64,000 nt of DNA from Candidatus Saccharimonadota bacterium (lineage in GTDB: Bacteria > Patescibacteriota > Saccharimonadia > Saccharimonadales > Saccharimonadaceae). Location of the stretch: the NCBI GenBank assembly GCA_017404955.1, contig JAFRBH010000012.1:1-64000 (forward strand). The letters run 5' to 3'. The position numbers were made by a program, and so were the translations under genes. The notes under the pieces were generated by a model. It ran no database searches and was not told where the DNA came from. It worked only from the letters and a program-made list of their open reading frames with translations. This document shows, piece by piece, positions 328 to 14,988 of the stretch (positions are counted from its first letter, which is position 1; every line of letters starts with the position of its first letter).

Positions 328-2940
328 CTATCTCTCAGTCTTTTTTGCTGCTTTTTCGATTGGCGTTTCAGCTTTTCCTTTATCGGCCCCCTCCGCTTCT
401 TCCTCTGGAAGTACAATTCCGATAGAAGCCACCGTGTCGCCCTCGCTCATACGCATGATACGTACACCTTGAGTAGCGCGACCAAGCGTTGGAATCTCTT
501 TCATCGCTACACGGATTGCTTGACCCTTAGTAGACATCATGATTACCTCTTTAGCTGCTGGATCCAATGTATGAACTGCTACAATTGGGCCAGTCTTTGC
601 GGTCACTGATGCCACTTTGATGCCAACTCCACCACGCTTGTGCACTGGAAAGTTAGCTACTGCAGTTGCTTTACCGTAACCGTTAGCAGAGATAGCGAGA
701 AGCTTCTGAGATGGATCAGTTACAATATCCATACCTACGATCTCGTCTTTAGGACGAAGTCTCATACCTCTGACACCTCTAGCTGCACGGCCCATAGCGC
801 GTACCTGATTCTCATTGAAGCGTACTGCCTGACCAGCCGAAGTAGAGATGATGATATCGTTAGAACCAGTAGTTCCCTTGACCCACTTAAGCTCGTCACC
901 TTCATCTAGCTTGATTGTAATCAAACCATTAGTACGAATATTCTCGTAATCCTTGATAGAGGTCTTCTTGATAGTACCCTTCTTGGTTGCCATAAAGAGG
1001 AAGCCGTCTGGGCCAAGTTCATCACCTTGTTTAATGATTGCGGTTACCTTCTCATCTGGGTGAAGATTGAGCATGTTTACAGCTGCAGTTCCCTTGGCGG
1101 CTAGAGATGCCTGCGGCACTTCGTAAGCCTTCAAACGGAATACTCTACCCTGAGAAGTGAAGAATAGTAAGAAATCGTGAGAGTTAGCAGTGATAATCTG
1201 AGCAATCACATCTTCTTCCTTGGTAGTCATACCGCGCTTGCCCTTACCACCTCTGTTCTGCTTACGGAAATCATTCTGAGACACACGCTTCATGTAATTC
1301 TCAGCGGTAAGCAAGATTACGCTTTCTTCCTCTGGAATTAGCTCTTCTTCAGAGAACTTGCCAGCTTCATGATTAATAATCTTGGAGCGGCGAGGATCAC
1401 CATATTTCTCTTTCATTGCGAGGAGTTCTTCCTTAATCACACGTAGGATTTCCTTCTCATCAGCGAGAATAGCTTCAAGTTTCTTGATAAGTTCGTGAAG
1501 TTCTTTGAGTTCTTCTTCAATTTTATCGCGTTCCAAACCTTGCAGTCTACGAAGTTGCATCGCGAGAATTGCAGCTGCCTGAATCTCAGAAAGACCGAAC
1601 TTCTTCATGAGTTGCTTATCAGCGTCATCATAGGATGCTCTAATTGTTGCAATCACCTCATCGATGTTATCAAGCGCAATCTTCAAACCTTCCAAGATGT
1701 GCGCACGTTCTTTCGCCTTTTTGAGATCGAACTCAGTTCTGCGACGAACCACTACCTGACGGTGCTTGATAAACTCTGCCAAAATCTCTTTAAGACCGAG
1801 AATTCTAGGCTGAATACCATCAACTAGTGCCAACATATTATAGTGGAACGAAGTCTGAAGACCAGTCATCTTGTAGAGCTGATTTAGAATCTTCTTTGGG
1901 AAAGCATCTTTCTTGAGCTCTACCACTACGCGTACCTTACCACGTGCTGATTCGTTTCTAGCGTCAGCGATATGATCAAGTTTTTTGTTCACCGCAAGTT
2001 CGCGTACTTTCTCAATAAATGCTTCCTTGCTCACGCCATAAGGCATCTCTGTAATAACGATGTTATAGCGACCATTTTTACGTTCTTCAATGTTGGTCAC
2101 AGCACGGATTGTCACAGAGCCTTTACCAGTAGCATAAGCCTGCTTCATCGGAGTGCCACCAAAGACTTCCGCCCCTGTTGGGAAATCTGGACCCTTAACA
2201 TACTTCATCAACTCATCTAGGGTAATATCTGGGTTGTCAATCTGGGCCACTGTTGCATCAACCAATTCACCAAGGTTATGTGGTGGAATATTGGTTGCCA
2301 TACCGACAGCGATACCCATCTGGCCATTAAGCAGAATATTAGGGAGCGCTGCAGGCAGAACCACTGGCTCTTGCTCAGTGCCATCGAAGTTATCTCTGAA
2401 ATCAACAGTTTCTTTCTCGATATCAGAGAGAAGCTCTGCACCCACCTTGTCCATTCTGGCCTCGGTGTAACGGGAAGCAGCTGGTTCATCACCATCAGCC
2501 GAACCGAAGTTACCTTGACCTTCTACGAGGGTATAGCGCATCTTCCAAGGCTGTGCCAAATTCACCATTGCATCGTAGATAGAAGAGTCACCGTGTGGGT
2601 GATATTTACCCATGACTTCACCGACGATACGTGCGGACTTTACAGTGGCATGTGGGGCTTTCCAGCCGTTTTTGTTCATCGCGTAGAGAATGCGCCTGTT
2701 CACAGGCTTCAAACCATCACGCACATCTGGGAGCGCACGATCGATAATCACCGACATCGAGTATTTCAAGAAATATTCTTCCATGGTGTTTTCTACCTGA
2801 CGCTTCTCAATACCATTTACCACTTCACCGACGGCCACTTCTGGCTCATCTACGTCTGGAGTGTTTTCAGTATCTGCAACTTCGCCATCAATTTTCATAT
2901 TTTTGATATCTTCTGGTAAGTTATTTTCATCTTTACTCAT
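328..2940 (-). CDS. gyrA: DNA gyrase subunit A
   Basis: This is the 870-aa breakage-reunion subunit of gyrase, which with GyrB introduces negative supercoils. The catalytic tyrosine is Tyr158 in [10 protein letters not shown]. The quinolone-region motif HGDSSIYD keeps Ser119 and Asp123, the usual sensitive residues. The GyrA-box is QNRGGKG at 561-567, a slight variant of QRRGGKG, and marks gyrase rather than topoisomerase IV. An acidic N-terminal extension of about 45 residues precedes the conserved core, and the C-terminal beta-pinwheel is present. AGGAG lies 7 nt before the ATG. The gene follows gyrB by 11 bp, so the pair is probably co-transcribed. A hairpin element follows the stop. Confidence 0.97.
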
Positions 2941-5423: not shown

Positions 5424-8270
5424 TTATCTAACCTTAAACACCTGATCTTCTGAGGCGTTATTTTGATCTGGCATCGCCATTTCTTCAGCTTTTTTGCCAC
5501 CTACCTGCTCTACGTCTTCATCTGGCACCACATTTTGGAAAACTGCATTAGCAGTCGTGGCGTTTTCTTGTTTGGCTGGGTCGCTTGAAAAGGTAGTCTC
5601 GCTATTAGCATTAGAGGAGATAGAAGGAACTGAAGATGGCGTCGCTTCCAGGGTACCCTTTTTCTTCATCCACCTATCTAGGAACGCTTCCGGCTTGCCG
5701 TCACCGCCAAACTCTAGTCCATCAGCAACACCAGAAGAAGAGGCATCCGAATTAACACTCTTCCCTAACCTTTCATTAATCTCCGCATCTACCTCAGCTC
5801 TAGTTCTACCGTATTTAGTGGCCGAATACATTTTCATCGAGTCTAATACTTCCGGATTTTCTTCTGACATTGGCGGAAGCAAAGACATTGTAAATGGCTT
5901 CGATGGCATATCAAACATCATCACCGTAGAAATCGCATGGAAATTCGGCTGGTTATGAAGGTCCTCTGCATTAAACGTCGGCGTAAACACCTTCTCCATA
6001 ATTTCCGCATCTGTGACACCAATACGCCCACAAATCACTGTGCCAACGTTACCAAGCAAGCCCTCGCGTATCTTATCGGTAAGCTGCGTCATAAATTGAT
6101 TTGCCACTATCAAATTCAGACGGAATTTACGAGCCTCAGATAGAATACTCTCAAAGCTCTCTGTTGCGAAATTCTGAAACTCATCAACGAACAGACAAAA
6201 ATCGTTACGCTGGTCCTCCGGCGTATCCACCCTTGACATTGCCGCTGTCTGAAACTTCATCACGAAAATCATACCTAGAAGTTTAGAGTTTATCTCTCCC
6301 ATCTTGCCTTTAGAGAGATTTACCAACAAAATCTTTTTGTTATCCATGATGTCACGAATATTAAACCCTGAATGTACCTGTCCTAAGATGTTTTTCATCA
6401 TAGTATTGGAAAGGAATGGCCCCCATTTTGAGGCAAACCAAGTAATCACTTCGCCTGCGTCATTTGATTTTTGAGAAGCTGGAAACTCCTTTGTCCAATA
6501 ATCGTAAACACTCTTATCTGTTACATACTGGAGCTTAGCTTTGACAAATTCTGGATCAATAAAACAACGTGGAATATCAATAAAGGTTGCCCCAGCAGGA
6601 TCAGACATCAGAAGAAGCGCGGCATTTCTAAACATGTGCTGGCCACGCGGACCAAAGAAACCTTGATTTCCTGGATCATACAATGACTGCAACATATTGA
6701 TCCCCTCTTGTACGATGAAATCTTTTTGATCCTCAGTCTCCCATTCAAACATATTCATACCAATCGGATGCTCAATGTCGCCAGGGTCGAAATAGATTAC
6801 ATCATCTATCCTATCCTTCGGTACCATTGAGAGTAGCTCCTCTGTTACGTCGCCGTGTGGATCAATAAAGGCAAAACCACGCCCAGCGAGCATATCTTGA
6901 TAAGCGATATTTTTCAGTAACACCGATTTTCCCATACCGGTAGCACCAATCACATAAGTGTGGCGCCTACGATCCTTTTCTGATAACCTAATTTCTTTCT
7001 TCTGACCTCTGAATTCATTTACGCCTAAAAGGATACCGTCAGTTACCAGTTTCGCCGGACCGTCAACCTGCTTAGTGAGCTGTCTTTCTACCTGAGAGTT
7101 CGGAATTGCATTCTGATCCGGCAAGTGAAACATTGTTGCAAGCTCCATCGAGTTTAAAATCAAACTATTATTTTTCTGTGGGAAGATACGGAAAATAAAA
7201 TCTTGCGCCAATTTCTTCTCATCTTTTAGCATATTGTATTCAAAACTGTTATAAAGCTGGGAGTTAAATAACGCAAATGCCGAGATCATTCCACCCACCA
7301 ACGCATCAGATCGAGCTTTAGACTTAGTGCTTGCCACCACCCTAATCAAGACCTCAAACCCAGGGTAGCGAGTCTTTTCATCAATCGCAGTCATTTCTTC
7401 CTGTTGAACATTGGTGATGGGTTCTTGCTCACTTGGATCCTTGGCGCGTTCTTTAATTGGTTCCACCGGCAAACGAATAATATCTGTGACTTTATCTATC
7501 ACCCAAATACCTGTACCACTTTTTGTGTTCCCATCCCGTATTTTTTTTATTCGGTCAGCCGATTTTTTTGTCCAACTCTGGTCAGTTGGGCGGAACATCA
7601 ACTGCAACGCCATACCCTCACCCTGTTTTACGGCAGACATCGCATTAAGTAACGCTCCTGAAGCGTCGCGTTTCATCTCTTCATAGGTAGCAATCGGATA
7701 GACAAACTCTTTCTTCAGGGAGAACTCGCCACCAGATACCCCGGCAATTCCCGCCTCTTTAGAGAAAATATTATCCTCATAGATCTCCTCTAATCTAGCG
7801 GTCGGATAAGCTGACACAATCGCCTGCTTCACTGTCTCTGTTATTACCGCTGGCACCACTGCATAATACTTGATCAGACCATCTGTGGCGATCATTTCAA
7901 AAGAGATATGTCTCTGACCATAAATCTTTGATTTTATACCTTTTTGCAGAGTGGAAGCAATAATCGAATACATAATCTGCGCTTGAGAAAGCGCCTCATT
8001 CGTCACGTCACGCTCGTCTCTACCGCCACCCTGAATGTCGTCTGTTTGCGGTGGCAAATGAATCAGCATTGGCACCATCTTGATACCACGTTCTAAGTTC
8101 TTAGCCTCGCGCCTCTTTTTTACGCCTCTAGCAAAGAATAATGCCCCCACGGCTAACGCCAGTAAAACCAGCGCCAAAATCACCAGCCACCCCAGTGTCC
8201 CAAGACCGCTCTGAGCTAATTCATTGGCTTCTGCTGCGCTGCTAAGCTCTGTTCCCACCGCAGATTCCAT
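5424..8270 (-). CDS. VirD4/TraG-like membrane ATPase (type IV coupling-protein family)
   Basis: A 948-aa protein with one transmembrane helix (about 25-47), a long mixed domain, then a RecA-like motor with Walker A GATGMGKS (442-449), an FIDPHGD strand (468-474) and Walker B FCLFVDEFQNF (691-701). The C-terminal ~100 residues are low complexity. This layout matches the DNA-pumping TraG/VirD4/TraD group widespread in CPR genomes, whose substrate in these organisms is not established. No VirB4, relaxase or other secretion genes are in the window. Its start overlaps the stop of the upstream 8270-8908 gene by one base, so the two are coupled. Confidence 0.8.
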   Translation of the reverse strand: MESAVGTELSSAAEANELAQSGLGTLGWLVILALVLLALAVGALFFARGVKKRREAKNLERGIKMVPMLIHLPPQTDDIQGGGRDERDVTNEALSQAQIMYSIIASTLQKGIKSKIYGQRHISFEMIATDGLIKYYAVVPAVITETVKQAIVSAYPTARLEEIYEDNIFSKEAGIAGVSGGEFSLKKEFVYPIATYEEMKRDASGALLNAMSAVKQGEGMALQLMFRPTDQSWTKKSADRIKKIRDGNTKSGTGIWVIDKVTDIIRLPVEPIKERAKDPSEQEPITNVQQEEMTAIDEKTRYPGFEVLIRVVASTKSKARSDALVGGMISAFALFNSQLYNSFEYNMLKDEKKLAQDFIFRIFPQKNNSLILNSMELATMFHLPDQNAIPNSQVERQLTKQVDGPAKLVTDGILLGVNEFRGQKKEIRLSEKDRRRHTYVIGATGMGKSVLLKNIAYQDMLAGRGFAFIDPHGDVTEELLSMVPKDRIDDVIYFDPGDIEHPIGMNMFEWETEDQKDFIVQEGINMLQSLYDPGNQGFFGPRGQHMFRNAALLLMSDPAGATFIDIPRCFIDPEFVKAKLQYVTDKSVYDYWTKEFPASQKSNDAGEVITWFASKWGPFLSNTMMKNILGQVHSGFNIRDIMDNKKILLVNLSKGKMGEINSKLLGMIFVMKFQTAAMSRVDTPEDQRNDFCLFVDEFQNFATESFESILSEARKFRLNLIVANQFMTQLTDKIREGLLGNVGTVICGRIGVTDAEIMEKVFTPTFNAEDLHNQPNFHAISTVMMFDMPSKPFTMSLLPPMSEENPEVLDSMKMYSATKYGRTRAEVDAEINERLGKSVNSDASSSGVADGLEFGGDGKPEAFLDRWMKKKGTLEATPSSVPSISSNANSETTFSSDPAKQENATTANAVFQNVVPDEDVEQVGGKKAEEMAMPDQNNASEDQVFKVR

Positions 8271-8908
8271 TACACTACCTTTCCTTCCGCCATATCAGAA
8301 AATTCAATTACTTCTGCCTGTTTCTTCCCTGGAAATTCTACAATTTTTGCCTGTTCGCCCTCTGGCGCCGCATCATCGGCTTCGTTGTTATTCCCGAAAA
8401 TTCGACCATAATTGTCTCTAAGGCCATCGGCCATCATCTCATTTCTCTTGTTATCAAGCTCAAACGGATCATTTTTATACTTAGAAATTACCTTTCTAAC
8501 TTGTTTCTGTGACTCCTTATCAATCAAGTCTCCACCAAAGGTCAAAATCTTATCTTTATCAATCTTCCCCTCTATTGAACCATCTTCGGCTAACGGCTTA
8601 TATTCGGTATCTATCTCTGGCGGAGTCATGCCTGGTGTCATTTCTGGAAAATCTGTTATCTGTTCCGAATCTCCTAATCCTTCTGGCATTTTCAAGCCCT
8701 CCGGCATATTTGAGCTTTCAAAGGCTTTAGGCGCCTCTGGAATACCAAACATTTCTGCAGCCTTACTACCTAATTCAGTCTTTGCTTTCCCACTTAAATC
8801 AAGTTTTTCTTTGACTAATTCCTGTGGTTTCTCAGTATTTCCACCAAAAATCCCTGGGCCTTTTTCACCCATATCAACCCTGTTACCTCCGGTTCCCAGG
8901 TTATCCAT
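8270..8908 (-). CDS. Hypothetical acidic soluble protein, partner of the VirD4-like ATPase
   Basis: A 212-aa protein I do not recognise, rich in Glu, Pro and Gly, with repeated MPEGLKMPEGLGD-type turns, no membrane helix, and an acidic, probably disordered middle. The ATG at 8908 is chosen because a TTTACT/TGCTACAAT promoter ends 6 nt upstream (hexamer 8920-8915), giving a leaderless message. A longer frame from 8959 would overlap the promoter. It is translationally coupled to the downstream ATPase and may be an adaptor, by position only. Confidence 0.6.
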   Translation of the reverse strand: MDNLGTGGNRVDMGEKGPGIFGGNTEKPQELVKEKLDLSGKAKTELGSKAAEMFGIPEAPKAFESSNMPEGLKMPEGLGDSEQITDFPEMTPGMTPPEIDTEYKPLAEDGSIEGKIDKDKILTFGGDLIDKESQKQVRKVISKYKNDPFELDNKRNEMMADGLRDNYGRIFGNNNEADDAAPEGEQAKIVEFPGKKQAEVIEFSDMAEGKVV

Positions 8909-8981
8909 AAGCACATTGTAGCAAGAAAAGCATAAAAAGTAAAGATAAAAAATGGTCAAAAATTAGATTTTTTGACCTCTG

Positions 8982-9329
8982 TTATAGGCGTTTAGAAATC
9001 ACAAAACAGCCCAGCATCACAAACGCCACCGCCATCGCCACAGTTGCAATATTCAACACCCCAAAAGATTGAATAAGAAGTAACATCACCGGTCCAAAAG
9101 CAATCATTGCCGCAAAGTAATTCTCTTTTCTAGTCCTTTCTTTATACCCCATCATACGCCTAAAGAAGATCACTAGTAAATTCACCACCCCCAGTACTAC
9201 CAGATATACCATGATGAAAAACACTAAAACCCCCAACGGACCGACTTCCGTAGGGGTTGTTAGATTTATCATCGCGAGAATAATAACGACGGCCACCAGA
9301 CTTGCAAACGATATCAGACGATTAAACAT
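8982..9329 (-). CDS. Small multi-pass membrane protein, unknown
   Basis: A 115-aa protein with about four hydrophobic helices (roughly 5-23, 29-56, 70-90, 92-112) and a basic cytoplasmic loop FFRRMMGYKERTRKEN. I recognise no family. TATAAT (9341-9336) ends exactly 6 nt before the ATG, so it is probably leaderless. It lies upstream of the VirD4-like pair in the same direction and may belong with it. Confidence 0.6.
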   Translation of the reverse strand: MFNRLISFASLVAVVIILAMINLTTPTEVGPLGVLVFFIMVYLVVLGVVNLLVIFFRRMMGYKERTRKENYFAAMIAFGPVMLLLIQSFGVLNIATVAMAVAFVMLGCFVISKRL

Positions 9330-9349
9330 AAGCCAATTATATCACACTA

Positions 9350-9915
9350 TTTCGGTTTTTATTATTCTCCCAAAGACAAGAAGTTGGTTCTCTCCCCAAG
9401 GTCTCTCCCTTGGTTTAAGATCGTGCTCATAGTCCTCTCGGACTAAAGTCACCCGTACTGCGAGAAACGGGTTCTATTCCCCCTTTTTTGACCCTTTTAC
9501 AAGGGCCAAAGAGTGGAAGTTATCCGGCACAAATAAACTTACTATAGGCCGCAACTTTTAATCCACTCTCTAGCTTTTTGACCGCCTCGCTGACGCGAGA
9601 CATAAGTCCTTACTGTTGTTTAGATCATTCATTTTTAGTAAAGTGCTAATGGTCATAAACTTCAGTGCGCTCTACGCTATTTCGCGGAGCTATAGGTAAT
9701 TCCTGTTGAGCCTTCGTCTTGAGATTTTACCCCAACTACTTAGACTCGGTGTAATTTATGGCTAGAAATTACCTATTTGCCCGCCAAATCAGCTATTTTT
9801 GGCTTTTCTAGATTTGGACTCATAGAAAATGCCAATGAGCCTTTTGGCTCTTTAAAGCTATTTGTATTTCATTTTTTCCTTTTAATTTGCAATTTTTGTT
9901 TTGGTCTTTCGACTT
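9350..9915 (-). ncRNA. Large structured non-coding RNA, family not recognised (approximate ends)
   Basis: No gene-like frame crosses this stretch, yet it has a dedicated promoter (TTGAAA 9950-9945, 17 bp, TATGCT 9927-9922) and many helices. Examples on the minus strand: GAGCC/GGCTC; TAGGTAATT paired 60-80 nt later with AATTACCTA; GAGTGG..AAGTT paired with AACTT-CCACTC around GGCC/GCCGG; GGCCCTT/AAGGGTC; ACCCG/CGGGT; TAGTCC-GAGA-GGACTA; CCAAGG-GAGA-CCTTGG. Several loops are GAGA- or GAAA-like. It is not RNase P (14590) or tmRNA (10978), and I see no SRP core. The 3' end is unclear; there is no T-tract before the next promoter at 9341. Confidence 0.55.
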
Positions 9916-9921
9916 ACCCCT

Positions 9922-9950
9922 AGCATAGCACAAGCAGTTTATTTTTTCAA
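9922..9950 (-). promoter_or_regulatory. Promoter of the large RNA
   Basis: TTGAAA, 17-bp spacer ending CTTGTGC, then TATGCT. The CTTGTGCTAT string is shared with the tmRNA promoter. The predicted start is near 9915-9917. Confidence 0.6.
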
Positions 9951-9969
9951 GAGTTTTGAACAAATATTT

Positions 9970-9988
9970 TGTTGTAATTTTTACAACA
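9970..9988. promoter_or_regulatory. 19-bp palindromic operator-like site, copy A
   Basis: TGTTGTAATTTTTACAACA, a perfect dyad TGTTGTAA-N3-TTACAACA. It is centred about 64 bp upstream of the predicted start of the large RNA and 20 bp upstream of its -35, an activator-like position. Confidence 0.55.
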
Positions 9989-10037
9989 TTCACATATTTT
10001 ATTCACTTCTACCTCTTGAATTCTGCCTTATTTCTGG

Positions 10038-10056
10038 TGTTGTAATTTTTACAACA
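10038..10056. promoter_or_regulatory. 19-bp palindromic operator-like site, copy B
   Basis: Identical to copy A (19 of 19 bases), centred 68 bp further upstream at about -132 relative to the large RNA. It abuts the stop codon of the 10058-10636 gene. Two identical dyads at this spacing are unlikely by chance. Confidence 0.55.
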
Positions 10057-10057
10057 T

Positions 10058-10636
10058 TCAGCAGTTTTTAGCCTCAATTTTTTGAATAATTCTTTTAATA
10101 TCCAGCCGTTTACCGCTTTCACAATGTTTGTAAAATTCATCCGGAGTCAGACCATTTGGCACTGCTGCATATTCATAGACTGCCAGCTGGTCGATATCCC
10201 ACTTTTGTTTCTCATCCATTTCGTGAAGCCATTCAGAAACTACAAATTGCATTGCCTCACTATAGTTATCAAAAACCCAAACTCCACGATGCGTACCCCA
10301 AGCATGCTCATAGTAATAAACCTTACCTTGCACCCCTAGCAGTATCACTGTATGAGATGGATAATTTTCATCCCCATGATAAACCAGGAGAAGTGCCCTG
10401 ACGGCCACGTTAGGCTCTTCCATAGCTATTTTTCGCTCAAGTTCAACTTGATCCCAGCACACACCCAAACGGCTTGCTAGTAGACTCTCCGGGCCTTGTA
10501 GCCTATATTTTAGAGCGTATTCATCCATGCTTGTATGTTTTTTGCCATCTACATCCAGCCAGCCGTAATCAACATTGTGCATTTTAGCATCAATTGCCTT
10601 CAATATACTTGGCCAATCATTTTTTTCCAATTTCAT
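10058..10636 (-). CDS. Putative transglutaminase-like / papain-fold cysteine hydrolase
   Basis: A 192-aa soluble protein. Candidate catalytic residues are the Cys in RLGVCWDQVELER, a His in YPSHTVIL and a second His with Trp in YYEHAWG; this Cys...His layout is typical of transglutaminase-like enzymes that act on peptides. The substrate is unknown and there is no signal peptide. The ATG at 10636 is chosen over 10666 because GGAG lies 6 nt upstream and a TTGTGA-18-TATGCT promoter puts the transcript start near 10656. It lies alone between RNA genes. Confidence 0.55.
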   Translation of the reverse strand: MKLEKNDWPSILKAIDAKMHNVDYGWLDVDGKKHTSMDEYALKYRLQGPESLLASRLGVCWDQVELERKIAMEEPNVAVRALLLVYHGDENYPSHTVILLGVQGKVYYYEHAWGTHRGVWVFDNYSEAMQFVVSEWLHEMDEKQKWDIDQLAVYEYAAVPNGLTPDEFYKHCESGKRLDIKRIIQKIEAKNC

Positions 10637-10790
10637 TTTTGACTCCAACATATTTTTTAATAGCATACCATAAATTATTTTTGGCTCACAATTTTTTACA
10701 AAATTTGTTCATGCCTTTTTGGCATTTTTTTGGTCATTTTTGCTTGTGGAAAACTTTGAAAAAATTGTCAAAAAATCTTTCAAAAAAGTA
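10637..10790. other. AT-rich divergent promoter region
   Basis: Contains the minus-strand promoter of the cysteine-hydrolase-like gene and, on the plus strand, a hairpin ATGCC-TTTTT-GGCAT followed by T7 near 10710-10730. That hairpin resembles a terminator, but no plus-strand gene precedes it. Nothing else supported. Confidence 0.35.
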
Positions 10791-10819
10791 TTGACATAAG
10801 CATTTTTTCGCGATATTAT
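10791..10819 (+). promoter_or_regulatory. Near-consensus promoter of a small RNA
   Basis: TTGACA (10791-10796), 17-bp spacer, TATTAT (10814-10819). No coding frame follows. Confidence 0.65.
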
Positions 10820-10825
10820 AGAGGT

Positions 10826-10931
10826 AGCTTTTGAATAAAAAAATTATTCAAAGCCAAAAACAAACAATCATAGCCAAAAAACTCCACACTCTACATAAAA
10901 GTCCGGTATCCTCGCAGTTCCGGACTTTTTC
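10826..10931 (+). ncRNA. Candidate small RNA (~106 nt), unassigned
   Basis: Bounded by a TTGACA-17-TATTAT promoter and an intrinsic terminator (AAGTCCGG at 10899-10906 paired with CCGGACTT at 10920-10927, then T-run). A 5' hairpin pairs GCTTTTGAAT with ATTCAAAGC. The middle is A-rich and single-stranded. There is no start codon with a ribosome site. It is too short for 6S and lacks the SRP signature. It lies tail to tail with tmRNA. Confidence 0.55.
10899..10930 (+). terminator. Terminator of the small RNA
   Basis: An 8-bp GC-rich stem AAGTCCGG/CCGGACTT, 13-nt loop, followed by TTT on the plus strand. Confidence 0.7.
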
Positions 10932-10937
10932 TTATAC

Positions 10938-10963
10938 AAAAAGCGCCCAAATTGGGCGTTTTT
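10938..10963. terminator. Bidirectional terminator of tmRNA
   Basis: CGCCCAA/TTGGGCG stem flanked by A5 and T5, immediately 3' of the tmRNA CCA end on the minus strand. Confidence 0.75.
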
Positions 10964-10977
10964 AATGCTAAATATGT

Positions 10978-11335
10978 TGGTGGAGCTGCCGGATACTGCC
11001 TCCGGGTCCGAAAAATTTCCATAATATCACTCTACACGCATAGTCTATCTGTTAATCTTGGCAAAAACTCGGTAGAACAGATATACGAACCTATCCAAGC
11101 GCCATGACAAAGATTTCAGACCTCTGTTAGTCAAGCAAAGATCCTATTCCCATGAGTATGATAACCCTTGCTATTATGGAAACTCATAACAGGGGTCAGC
11201 CTAGAATAACTTAGGCAAAAGCAGGCATGTAAGCTACATGCTTGCTGGAAGATTTTTCTTCACTTATTCAATACTTACGGTATCAATCGTCGTGCATGAT
11301 ATTTGTTAATAATCCGTCTAAGCTTTGTCAGCCCC
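10978..11335 (-). ncRNA. ssrA: Transfer-messenger RNA (tmRNA)
   Basis: The 358-nt RNA that rescues stalled ribosomes. The 5' GGGGCUG pairs fully with 3' CAGCUCC before A-CCA, forming the tRNA-like acceptor. The T-arm stem is CCGGA/UCCGG but its loop reads GGCAGUA rather than the usual UUCRANY. The likely tag frame ends AYMPAFA-stop, with the UAA inside the small hairpin GCCUAA...UUCUAGGC, as in other tmRNAs; the resume codon is not certain. Promoter TTGTAT-17-TATAAT lies at 11374-11346, and the 5' end would be trimmed by RNase P. A terminator follows. Confidence 0.85.
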
Positions 11336-11345
11336 AACTACCTAA

Positions 11346-11374
11346 ATTATAGCACAAGTGGGTTAAAAATACAA
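11346..11374 (-). promoter_or_regulatory. tmRNA promoter
   Basis: TTGTAT (11374-11369), 17-bp spacer, extended TGCTATAAT with hexamer 11351-11346. The start near 11339 is 4 nt before the mature 5' end. Confidence 0.7.
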
Positions 11375-11472
11375 TATTTTAGAACAAAACTCAAAAATCC
11401 GACCACCACCTCTGTTAGTATGAACCGCAAATTACGCTTATGCTTCCCCTATTAGCCAGAAAACCATAACCT

Positions 11473-11505
11473 GTTTATGTATTTTTTACAACATTTAGGC
11501 AAAAA
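11473..11505 (+). repeat. 33-bp direct repeat, copy 1, upstream of comM
   Basis: Identical to 11545-11577, period 72 bp. It contains TTACAACA (11486-11493), the half-site of the 19-bp palindromes near 10 kb. The centre lies about 138 bp upstream of the comM start. Confidence 0.75.
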
Positions 11506-11544
11506 CTAGTCCAAAATCACCTCCAAAAAACCCGCCATACCCCC

Positions 11545-11577
11545 GTTTATGTATTTTTTACAACATTTAGGCAAAAA
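11545..11577 (+). repeat. 33-bp direct repeat, copy 2, upstream of comM
   Basis: A perfect second copy ending 15 bp before the comM -35. Its TTACAACA half-site (11558-11565) is centred at about -66, matching the -64 position of the palindrome at the large RNA promoter. Confidence 0.75.
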
Positions 11578-11592
11578 ACTTAATTCTTACGC

Positions 11593-11621
11593 TTGCAAAG
11601 CCAAAAAACGTCTGATATTTT
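11593..11621 (+). promoter_or_regulatory. comM promoter (leaderless)
   Basis: TTGCAA (11593-11598), 17-bp spacer, TATTTT (11616-11621). The ATG follows after 6 nt, so transcription should start at or next to the start codon. Confidence 0.55.
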
Positions 11622-11627
11622 CGGCCT

Positions 11628-13136
11628 ATGATTGCAAAAACTATTTCATTTATGCCCTTTGGTTTTGGCGCCAAATTAATTGAAGTTGAGGGTGCCTCCA
11701 CTCAGGGTCTACCAAATTTTAATATTGTTGGCATGGGAGCTAGAACTGTTTCTGAAGCTAGAGATCGAGTCCGTTCAGCCCTCAAAAATTCCAATTTCCT
11801 ATTCCCCAATAATAAGCTCACTGTCAACCTCGCCCCAGCCGATTTAGAAAAAGAAGGGACCTTCTTTGACCTATCTATCGCTATCAATATCCTTGTACTT
11901 TCTAAGCAGCTTCAGCCGGAAGATATACAAGATGCCGCCTTTGTCGGCGAGCTCTCACTAGACGGTAGTTTGCGCCCTATCCGCGGTATTATAAACATTG
12001 TCGAAGCCGCCAAAGAACACCGTATTTCCACCCTATTTCTCCCCGAAAAGAACTTCCCACAAGCTAATATTATTGCTGGTATTAATCTCATCCCAATCAA
12101 AGATCTTGTTAGCATCTTTAAGCATCTCAAGGGTCAAAAGATTATAAGGCCAACTACGGTACGTATCGCTAAATCAGAACAAAGGTCTATCAATAACGCC
12201 CCCAGTTTTGATGATATCTGTGGCCAAGCTCTTGCCAAACGTGCTCTAGCTATCGCTGTGGCTGGTCATCACAATATCTTACTCTCTGGCCCACCAGGCA
12301 CTGGTAAAACCATGCTAGCAAAAGCCGCTATGAGCCTACTTCCAGAACTCTCCACCCCAGAAAAAATCGCGGTTACCAAGCTCCATTCTTTGACCTCTCC
12401 CACCGAAGATATTATTGAAAAACGCCCTTTCCGTACGCCACATCACACCAGTAGCCTTACCTCCTTGATTGGCGGTGGAGCCCACGCCGAGCCAGGCGAA
12501 ATCTCTTTAGCTCATCTTGGGGTACTATTCTTAGATGAACTCCCAGAATATCAACGATCCTATCTAGAAGCTTTGCGCCAACCTTTGGAGGACCGCAAAA
12601 TTACTATTTCTCGTGCTAAGCGCAAAGTTACTTACCCCGCCGATTTCACACTCATTGCCACCATGAACCCTTGTCCTTGTGGCTACCTTGGCGACAAAGC
12701 TCACCCCTGTTCCTGTACCGAAAATCAAATCAACAATTATAAAAAGAAACTCTCCGGCCCACTTCTTGATCGTATTGATCTTTTCACAGAAGTTTCTAGG
12801 CCAGATGTCTCTGAGCTAAATAAGACCCCTCCAGCACACGAAAGTGCCAACCTAAAGGTAAGTATTGAAAAAGCTATCTCCGCCCAGAGAAAACGTTACC
12901 AAAACCATACTACCTATAATTCCTCTGTTCCCCCTCATAATATAAAAGCTATCTTGCTCTTAAGCACTAGTGCTCAAACCCTCTTGAACGCCGCCGCAAA
13001 GAATCTCAGTCTCTCCGTCAGGAGTTATTATAAAGTCATTAAAGTCGCTCGTACCATTGCCGATTTAGAAGGTGAAAAAGAGATTCTGGAGCCACACCTT
13101 ACTGAAGCCCTAAATTTCCGAAGAAAAATCCGCTAA
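11628..13136 (+). CDS. comM: ComM / YifB-type Mg-chelatase-like AAA+ ATPase
   Basis: A 502-aa protein of the ComM/YifB family; characterised ComM is a hexameric helicase that promotes branch migration during natural transformation. The N-terminal Lon-like ChlI domain covers about 1-170. The AAA+ core has Walker A GPPGTGKT, Walker B LGVLFLDELPE, the sensor region ATMNPCPCGYLGD with its Cys cluster, and a C-terminal Mg-chelatase domain. There is no ribosome site; the promoter ends 6 nt from the ATG. With type IV pilus genes in the same window it supports a DNA-uptake capacity, by inference. Two 33-bp repeats lie upstream. Confidence 0.92.
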   Translation: MIAKTISFMPFGFGAKLIEVEGASTQGLPNFNIVGMGARTVSEARDRVRSALKNSNFLFPNNKLTVNLAPADLEKEGTFFDLSIAINILVLSKQLQPEDIQDAAFVGELSLDGSLRPIRGIINIVEAAKEHRISTLFLPEKNFPQANIIAGINLIPIKDLVSIFKHLKGQKIIRPTTVRIAKSEQRSINNAPSFDDICGQALAKRALAIAVAGHHNILLSGPPGTGKTMLAKAAMSLLPELSTPEKIAVTKLHSLTSPTEDIIEKRPFRTPHHTSSLTSLIGGGAHAEPGEISLAHLGVLFLDELPEYQRSYLEALRQPLEDRKITISRAKRKVTYPADFTLIATMNPCPCGYLGDKAHPCSCTENQINNYKKKLSGPLLDRIDLFTEVSRPDVSELNKTPPAHESANLKVSIEKAISAQRKRYQNHTTYNSSVPPHNIKAILLLSTSAQTLLNAAAKNLSLSVRSYYKVIKVARTIADLEGEKEILEPHLTEALNFRRKIR

Positions 13137-14562: not shown

Positions 14563-14585
14563 CCACGCTTTAGGCGTGGTTTTTT
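14563..14585. terminator. Terminator between rpmB and RNase P RNA
   Basis: CCACGC-TTTA-GGCGTGG followed by T6, with A5 on the other side. It ends the plus-strand ribosomal operon and can also stop the minus-strand RNase P transcript. Confidence 0.85.
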
Positions 14586-14589
14586 GATA

Positions 14590-14924
14590 GGCTAAATAGT
14601 AAGCCGGGTTCTGTCGCCAGATAAATCTGACGGGCAACCATCTATCTAGACACTAGATTGCTCCAGTGTTCGAGCGGTAAACGTGTATCCTCGGATCGAG
14701 GTGTCTAACACTCCTTGCAGCTGGTAGGGTTTGCCTCCGATAAATATTACTACCTATCGCTGTGAGCTCTTACCTCACTCTTTTCACCTTTTCCTCTGTA
14801 GGACAGAGGTAGTTTTGTTTCTGTGGTACTTTCCCTACGCTTTCACGCGGTCGCCGTTAGCGACTACCATATCCTGTGCTGCCCGGACTTTCCTCTGGTA
14901 AAACCAGCGGTTGCCTCTAAAGCC
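14590..14924 (-). ncRNA. rnpB: RNase P RNA (bacterial class A)
   Basis: The 335-nt catalytic RNA that matures tRNA 5' ends. The minus strand carries the 5' signature GAGGAAAGUCCGGGC and the 3' signature ACAGAACCCGGCUUA, which together form the conserved core. Terminal GGCU/AGCC pairs as P1. TATAAT at 14936-14931 puts the start exactly at the predicted 5' end. Confidence 0.95.
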
Positions 14925-14988
14925 ACTACCATTATACCACCTCTTATAGATTTCGTCCAGCCCCCTTAAAATCCCCCTGAAAATCACT

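Follow-up and report, generated by a model that had tools for sequence, protein, structure and literature searches.

A predicted structured RNA gene tied to a small membrane protein gene in Saccharibacteria

In the closest described system, the ole gene is followed by oapA, and OapA, which has four helices and is basic on the side facing the cytoplasm, binds OLE RNA and brings it to the membrane (PMC12265935; PMC11332333). A similar layout is found in the window (the whole 64,000-nucleotide stretch of Candidatus Saccharimonadota DNA that we analysed), where the gene for a large and ornate RNA likewise lies directly upstream of, and is linked to, a gene (mem115) for a predicted four-helix membrane protein with a putative basic cytoplasmic side. 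We take this as a shared arrangement and not as homology; the two systems belong to different phyla, the core of the RNA described here spans only ~170-190 nt and no shared motif was noted. The OLE RNA model, which we take to be RF01071 in Rfam, had no match in positions 8900-11700 (E <= 10), in 20 relatives (E <= 0.5) or in 20 compact relatives (E <= 0.1).

Other known RNAs are more distant. ROOL, whose name recalls a ruminant origin, and GOLLD are also large structured bacterial RNAs of unknown function, and many homologues of the present RNA come from the ruminant gut, but the locus of this RNA is chromosomal and conserved, and its protein neighbour is obligatory. Riboswitch and attenuator leaders share with it a structured RNA directly upstream of one conserved operon on the same strand and a terminator-like hairpin next to the gene; they differ in size, and the downstream mem115 has its own, apparently leaderless promoter. 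Neither the ROOL and GOLLD models of Rfam nor those of known riboswitch and aptamer classes matched the window or its long and compact relatives. SRP RNA is a conserved RNA that is expected in such a genome, and 4.5S SRP RNA resembles the present RNA in its conservation and possible membrane link. This identity was rejected, as the RNA holds no SRP domain or motif and matches no SRP model. RF00169 was itself absent from G000 and from all 60 relatives searched, which cover 25 families of the order (11 of 14 controls matched), and the Ffh M domain (PF02978) from all 60 (14 of 14 controls matched); loss of SRP has already been reported for other CPR bacteria (PMC4508563, PMC8080830). The RNA is also neither tmRNA nor RNase P RNA, whose models it does not match and whose own genes, as annotated before, are elsewhere in the window; model matches place them at 10978-11335 (-) and 14584-14926 (-), respectively. 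The tmRNA has a modest score (70.5 bits) and is not called by ARAGORN; many relatives also have it close to the RNA, though not always in the same orientation.

A first-pass annotation had placed in 9350-9915 a large structured RNA of no recognised family, with a good promoter and without a gene-like frame over ~565 nt, and had given no strand. No conserved coding frame was found in this region, and the promoter is real and lies on the minus strand. Since promoter, covariance model matches (R1, R2 and R3, below), z-scores and consensus fold all favour this strand, we assign the RNA gene to it, running from ~9915 to ~9350, and infer its transcription from the promoter. The gene and its upstream sites are as follows.

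9346..9915 (-): predicted structured RNA; 5' end predicted at ~9915, 3' end not fixed in the window and presumably before the mem115 promoter
9922..9950 (-): RNA promoter, with -35 TTGAAA at 9945-9950 and extended -10 TGCTATGCT at 9922-9930
9971..9987 (no strand): palindrome GTTGTAATTTTTACAAC upstream of the RNA promoter, likely regulator site
10039..10055 (no strand): second, identical palindrome GTTGTAATTTTTACAAC, 68 bp upstream of the first

The same -35/extended -10 combination precedes 116 of 119 loci in the window's genus, compared to 1.25 expected in shuffled sequence. The palindrome has only these two exact copies within the 64 kb, similar ones occur at 82 of the 119 loci (<=2 in shuffles), and the pair is, judging from this recurrence, likely a regulator site. 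At the other end of the gene, the window's own genus shows no evident true terminator. The element CTTGGGGG at the RNA 3' end was rejected as a -35 of mem115: many loci have 17 nt between it and the -10 and others far more, an inconsistency that makes it more likely an element of the RNA. Between RNA and tmRNA lies a gene for a 202-aa protein (10058-10666 (-)) whose Pfam matches all fall below threshold.

The 568-nt minus strand folds far better than dinucleotide shuffles (MFE z = -8.65, versus -5.34 for the plus strand), its MFE fold includes the conserved helices, and the consensus fold of the genus alignment is better in the minus than in the plus sense. This alignment contains helices P1, P2, P3, P4/P4b, P5 and P6; the elements of the RNA are listed here from the 5' end.

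9904..9913 (-): 5' hairpin GUCGAAAGAC, with A-rich ACAAAAACAAAAA after it; such a combination of 5' hairpin and A-rich stretch is recurrent in the order
9779..9790 (-), 3' strand 9679-9690: helix P1, from MFE pairs and genus alignment
9764..9776 (-), 3' strand 9692-9704: helix P2, TAGGTAATT/AATTACCTA
9750..9773 (-): near-invariant 24-nt motif GGTAATTTCTAGCCATAAATTACA, exact pattern in at least 115 genome stretches
9669..9690 (-): P3 hairpin GCUC...GAGC, 5' strand common to P1, covariation from GCUC/GAGC to GCUU/AAGC
9608..9667 (-): P4/P4b stem, with four of the five significant covarying pairs
9580..9609 (-): P5 hairpin and GCGGUCA junction, order-wide core
9510..9571 (-): P6 with invariant G-U and GA bulge (CCGGAUAA), order-wide core, with one significant covarying pair
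9451..9472 (-): P7 hairpin with conserved UCGCAG loop, seen by eye in some subclades only, stem sequences differing between relatives

The long-range pairing that had been noticed in the letters is P2, in which 99.5% of cells are paired in 101 sequences and positions are invariant or compensated (U-A to C-G). The strand that P3 and P1 have in common makes a switch possible. In P6, the G-U next to the GA bulge is embedded in UUG-CGGC / GCCG-GA-UAA in the window and in AAG-CGCU / AGCG-GA-UUU in other families. A home-made, R-scape-like covariation test with a tree-based null model, applied to 100 genus homologues, yielded five significant pairs after correction for phylogeny (E <= 0.05 per alignment). 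All five are Watson-Crick pairs in P4, P4b or P6 and fall in predicted helices, the one in P4 being absent from the structure of the covariance model; with 20 or 31 sequences the same test has too little power. Among 101 genus rows, 97.2% of cells pair, with 330 double-change cells compared to 80 in shuffles and pairing down to 41-53% in slid versions of the alignment, figures that are inflated by the fitting of these rows to the model. The 20 compact homologues show 91.7% pairing and 71 double changes (24 in shuffles). The compensatory covariation goes beyond phylogeny, and the RNA is a conserved structured RNA.

Conservation in relatives was then evident at several depths. By blastn the region matched 32 of 60 relatives, all of one genus. 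Among the matches of the 24-nt motif that were listed with a title shown, all were Ca. Saccharibacteria, many of them from ruminant gut, and viral contigs gave no match to the motif; one of the 80 matches examined (L132) looks like a chance match in coding sequence. Covariance model R1, seeded with 31 homologues and with the window left out, recovered the RNA in 41 of the 43 genomes of the genus and matched the window itself with E = 9.6e-51 (9503-9787 (-)). Three genomes or loci (L201, G220 and G180) have two R1 matches each, some on different contigs, which are either true second copies or come from mixed MAGs. Model R2 covers the P5-P6 domain and was seeded exclusively with sequences from other genera (32 in number). 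Of the order's 292 near-complete genomes it matched 143, which represent 70 of 123 genera and include members of the window's genus, with the match where R1 had placed it. It also matched the window, at 9502-9612 (-), with E = 0.0018 when 300 kb were searched. Model R3, from the 20 compact homologues, added further families and one clear locus in another order of the class (G492, E = 7e-7), likewise upstream of a mem115 homologue. As R3 had no significant match in the window (E 0.73), homology of the window RNA to the core rests on R2, the overlap of R1 and R2, and synteny. Across the genomes compared, mostly MAGs, the RNA thus appears to be spread class-wide in Saccharibacteria, which are very small, parasitic bacteria, throughout one order and at one locus of another.

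Six weak R3 matches beyond the class, with per-genome E values from 3e-4 to 8e-3, do not lead us to claim a phylum-wide spread; ~4 such matches are expected by chance in 381 genomes, and of the two that we examined, one (L277) falls within a protein-coding gene, and the other (L278) is intergenic and has no mem115 beside it. The latter (1501-1549 (-), in another class of the phylum) is a P6-like terminator hairpin with GCGCC...GGCGGAU that could be due to chance (E = 3e-4 per genome).

Rfam gave no match for the long, intermediate or compact forms in the window and its relatives, in agreement with the first reading of the sequence, and we found no description of the RNA in the open-access literature. 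Two outcomes that the first-pass annotation had named as refuting, an Rfam hit and a lack of conservation among relatives, thus did not occur. We rate it as a new family, of the kind in which a large RNA gene is tied to a membrane protein gene.

Comparison of the homologues points to an ancestral core of ~170-190 nt that comprises hairpins P5 and P6. The compact form found in other families consists of a TTGAC-TAnnnT promoter, a 5' hairpin with A-rich loop, P5 and P6, and in many other genera terminator-like U-runs follow directly after P6. In family f1 a P1-P4 domain of ~250 nt is added, and in the window's genus this domain is joined by a 3' extension, in some clades by the UCGCAG-loop hairpin P7, and often by a mini-ORF:

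9858..9883 (-): AAAAGGAAAA and mini-ORF ATGAAATACAAATAG (MKYK*)

An ATG mini-ORF is present in 104 of 118 genus loci, 68 of which have at least 4 nt of Shine-Dalgarno sequence, and its stop lies most often 17 nt ahead of the invariant GGTAATTT; since it is missing from 14 loci, it is not part of the core. In eight loci (L030, L035, L038, L039, L057, L126, L128 and L140), inserts that can reach several hundred nt separate P1/P2 from the next helices, often with hairpins of their own.

The conserved core, like the strand and the obligatory neighbour gene, had been missing from the first-pass annotation, which expected homologues between a 115-aa membrane gene and comM. The membrane gene indeed proved to be the fixed downstream partner; on the other side of the RNA, comM and tmRNA vary in order and orientation between genomes. 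The downstream operon is headed by mem115.

8982..9329 (-): mem115, 115-aa membrane protein with four helices, directly downstream of the RNA on the same strand
9336..9344 (-): extended -10 of mem115, TGATATAAT, 6 nt before the ATG; transcript predicted to be leaderless
8270..8959 (-): p229, second gene of the operon, with a homologue at the same place in relatives
5424..8270 (-): 948-aa VirD4/TraG-like ATPase of the operon, TrwB_AAD_bind at the cut-off (20.5 of 20.5 bits) and TraG-D_C just below

The AlphaFold2 model of mem115 is a confident one (pLDDT 95.3) and shows four helices; the loop that joins the second to the third is basic, as is the C-terminus. The protein has no Pfam match above cut-off, no significant sequence match and no fold match at E <= 0.001 in the PDB, no CNNM-like fold among the PDB matches listed, and no likeness to any RNA-binding protein by sequence or fold. 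As neither the RNA nor mem115 belongs to a known family, the pair looks like an undescribed RNA-plus-membrane-protein system.

The RNA lies directly upstream of mem115, on the same strand, at every validated site inspected, including G492 and a divergent copy in G226, and in family f1 this order holds wherever R1 or R2 and mem115 coordinates are comparable. Because synteny in f1 was partly sampled through mem115 itself, the unbiased support comes from the R1, R2 and R3 matches. A direct search found mem115 in 48 of the 60 genera of the family, a lower bound, as it missed the G226 copy that directly follows the RNA; in other families a mem115-like gene, judged by size, helices and a TNP...LQSxGQL signature, follows the RNA in 20 of 20 R2 loci examined. 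Two genomes of the window's genus (G207 and G035, both 99% complete) lack the RNA, a detectable mem115 and the orthologous ATPase together, an absence that could stem from assembly gaps and, for mem115, from a search that also missed the divergent G226 protein. They retain only an ATPase paralogue (35-36% identity), such that of the two paralogues just the RNA-linked one is missing. In G000 the two VirD4/TraG-like paralogues are 35% identical and are encoded at 5424-8270 (-) and on contig C9:18532-20790.

RNA and mem115 appear to be transcribed separately. Of 120 genus loci, 112 have the extended -10 close to the mem115 ATG; among 65 loci from other genera or families, 48 have a TAnnnT near the ATG, compared to 17.4 in shuffles. 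U-rich termination signals lie between the two genes in many relatives, and in other families a second hairpin with a U-run is seen by eye in this interval. Two separately transcribed yet genomically inseparable genes, one for a small, multi-helix membrane protein, in the layout that led to OapA for OLE RNA, are the reasons why we favour, at somewhat less than even confidence and by analogy, a membrane-tethered ribonucleoprotein (RNP) of RNA and mem115 that would resemble OLE RNA-OapA in layout and not in descent. The RNA would be made from its own regulated promoter and end before mem115; the P5-P6 core, with its GGUCA junction and the G-U/GA-bulge loop, could serve as a protein-binding platform; mem115 would hold the RNA at the inner face of the membrane; and the RNP may act with the VirD4/TraG-type ATPase of the same operon, that is, with an apparatus for transfer or attachment. 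The P1-P4 domain, the 3' extension and often the mini-ORF are gains of the RNA in the window's genus.

Against the RNP count the missing likeness of mem115 to RNA-binding proteins, the lack of an evident true terminator in the window's genus and the possible assembly gaps in G207 and G035. The fixed site directly upstream on the same strand also counts against it, since this is equally the signature of a cis-regulatory leader, which is for this reason a serious rival and, in our estimate, a real though lesser possibility. In that case the mem115-p229-ATPase transcript would begin with the RNA, and P6 would be a conditional attenuator under the control of a ligand or protein or, for the window's genus, of mini-ORF translation. 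P6 as a terminator in many genera, where U-runs follow it, and the strand common to P3 and P1, as well as the Shine-Dalgarno-preceded mini-ORF just ahead of the structure, would suit such control; yet a leader of up to ~565 nt would be very long, no competing anti-terminator fold was found, the second hairpin and U-run of other families intervene before the gene, and mem115 need not depend on a leader, as it has an extended -10 of its own a few nt ahead of its ATG.

An RNA that acts independently in trans, as a regulator or scaffold together with other proteins or mRNAs, and whose place beside mem115 reflects no more than the promoter-proximal position of both in one conserved locus, seems unlikely to us: its own regulated promoter with the palindrome pair, the nearby tmRNA and RNase P in the same window would fit, but the RNA-mem115 order is invariant while that of tmRNA and comM is not. 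It is very improbable that the transcript is a small mRNA for a short basic peptide (MKYK, MKKKRFKARNKP and similar) with the structure as untranslated stabiliser, since the frequent mini-ORFs and Shine-Dalgarno matches of the genus are offset by the 14 loci that lack the ORF, by the lack of a consistent one upstream of the core in other genera and families, by a Lys-rich composition that A-rich DNA would yield anyway, and by peptides that vary freely in length and sequence. An RNA on the plus strand, to which we give practically no credence, would fit the unstated strand of the earlier annotation and a fold still better than shuffles (z -5.3), and was rejected on promoter, model matches, fold and z-scores.

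Returning to the membrane-tethered RNP, a stronger version would have RNA and mem115 form an obligate complex that is part of, or directly controls, the VirD4/TraG-type ATPase apparatus of Saccharibacteria, in a cassette gained and lost as one and in bacteria that lack SRP; we consider this conceivable and rather doubtful. With a new RNA family and an unclassified membrane protein strictly tied to it, the OLE RNA/OapA layout would have a second, independent example. The system sits in a CPR class with cultivated epibiotic members, for which TM7x-host cocultures exist that would allow testing, and an RNA whose core appears to have grown from ~180 to ~560 nt within one order may provide a natural series in which core can be told from ornament.
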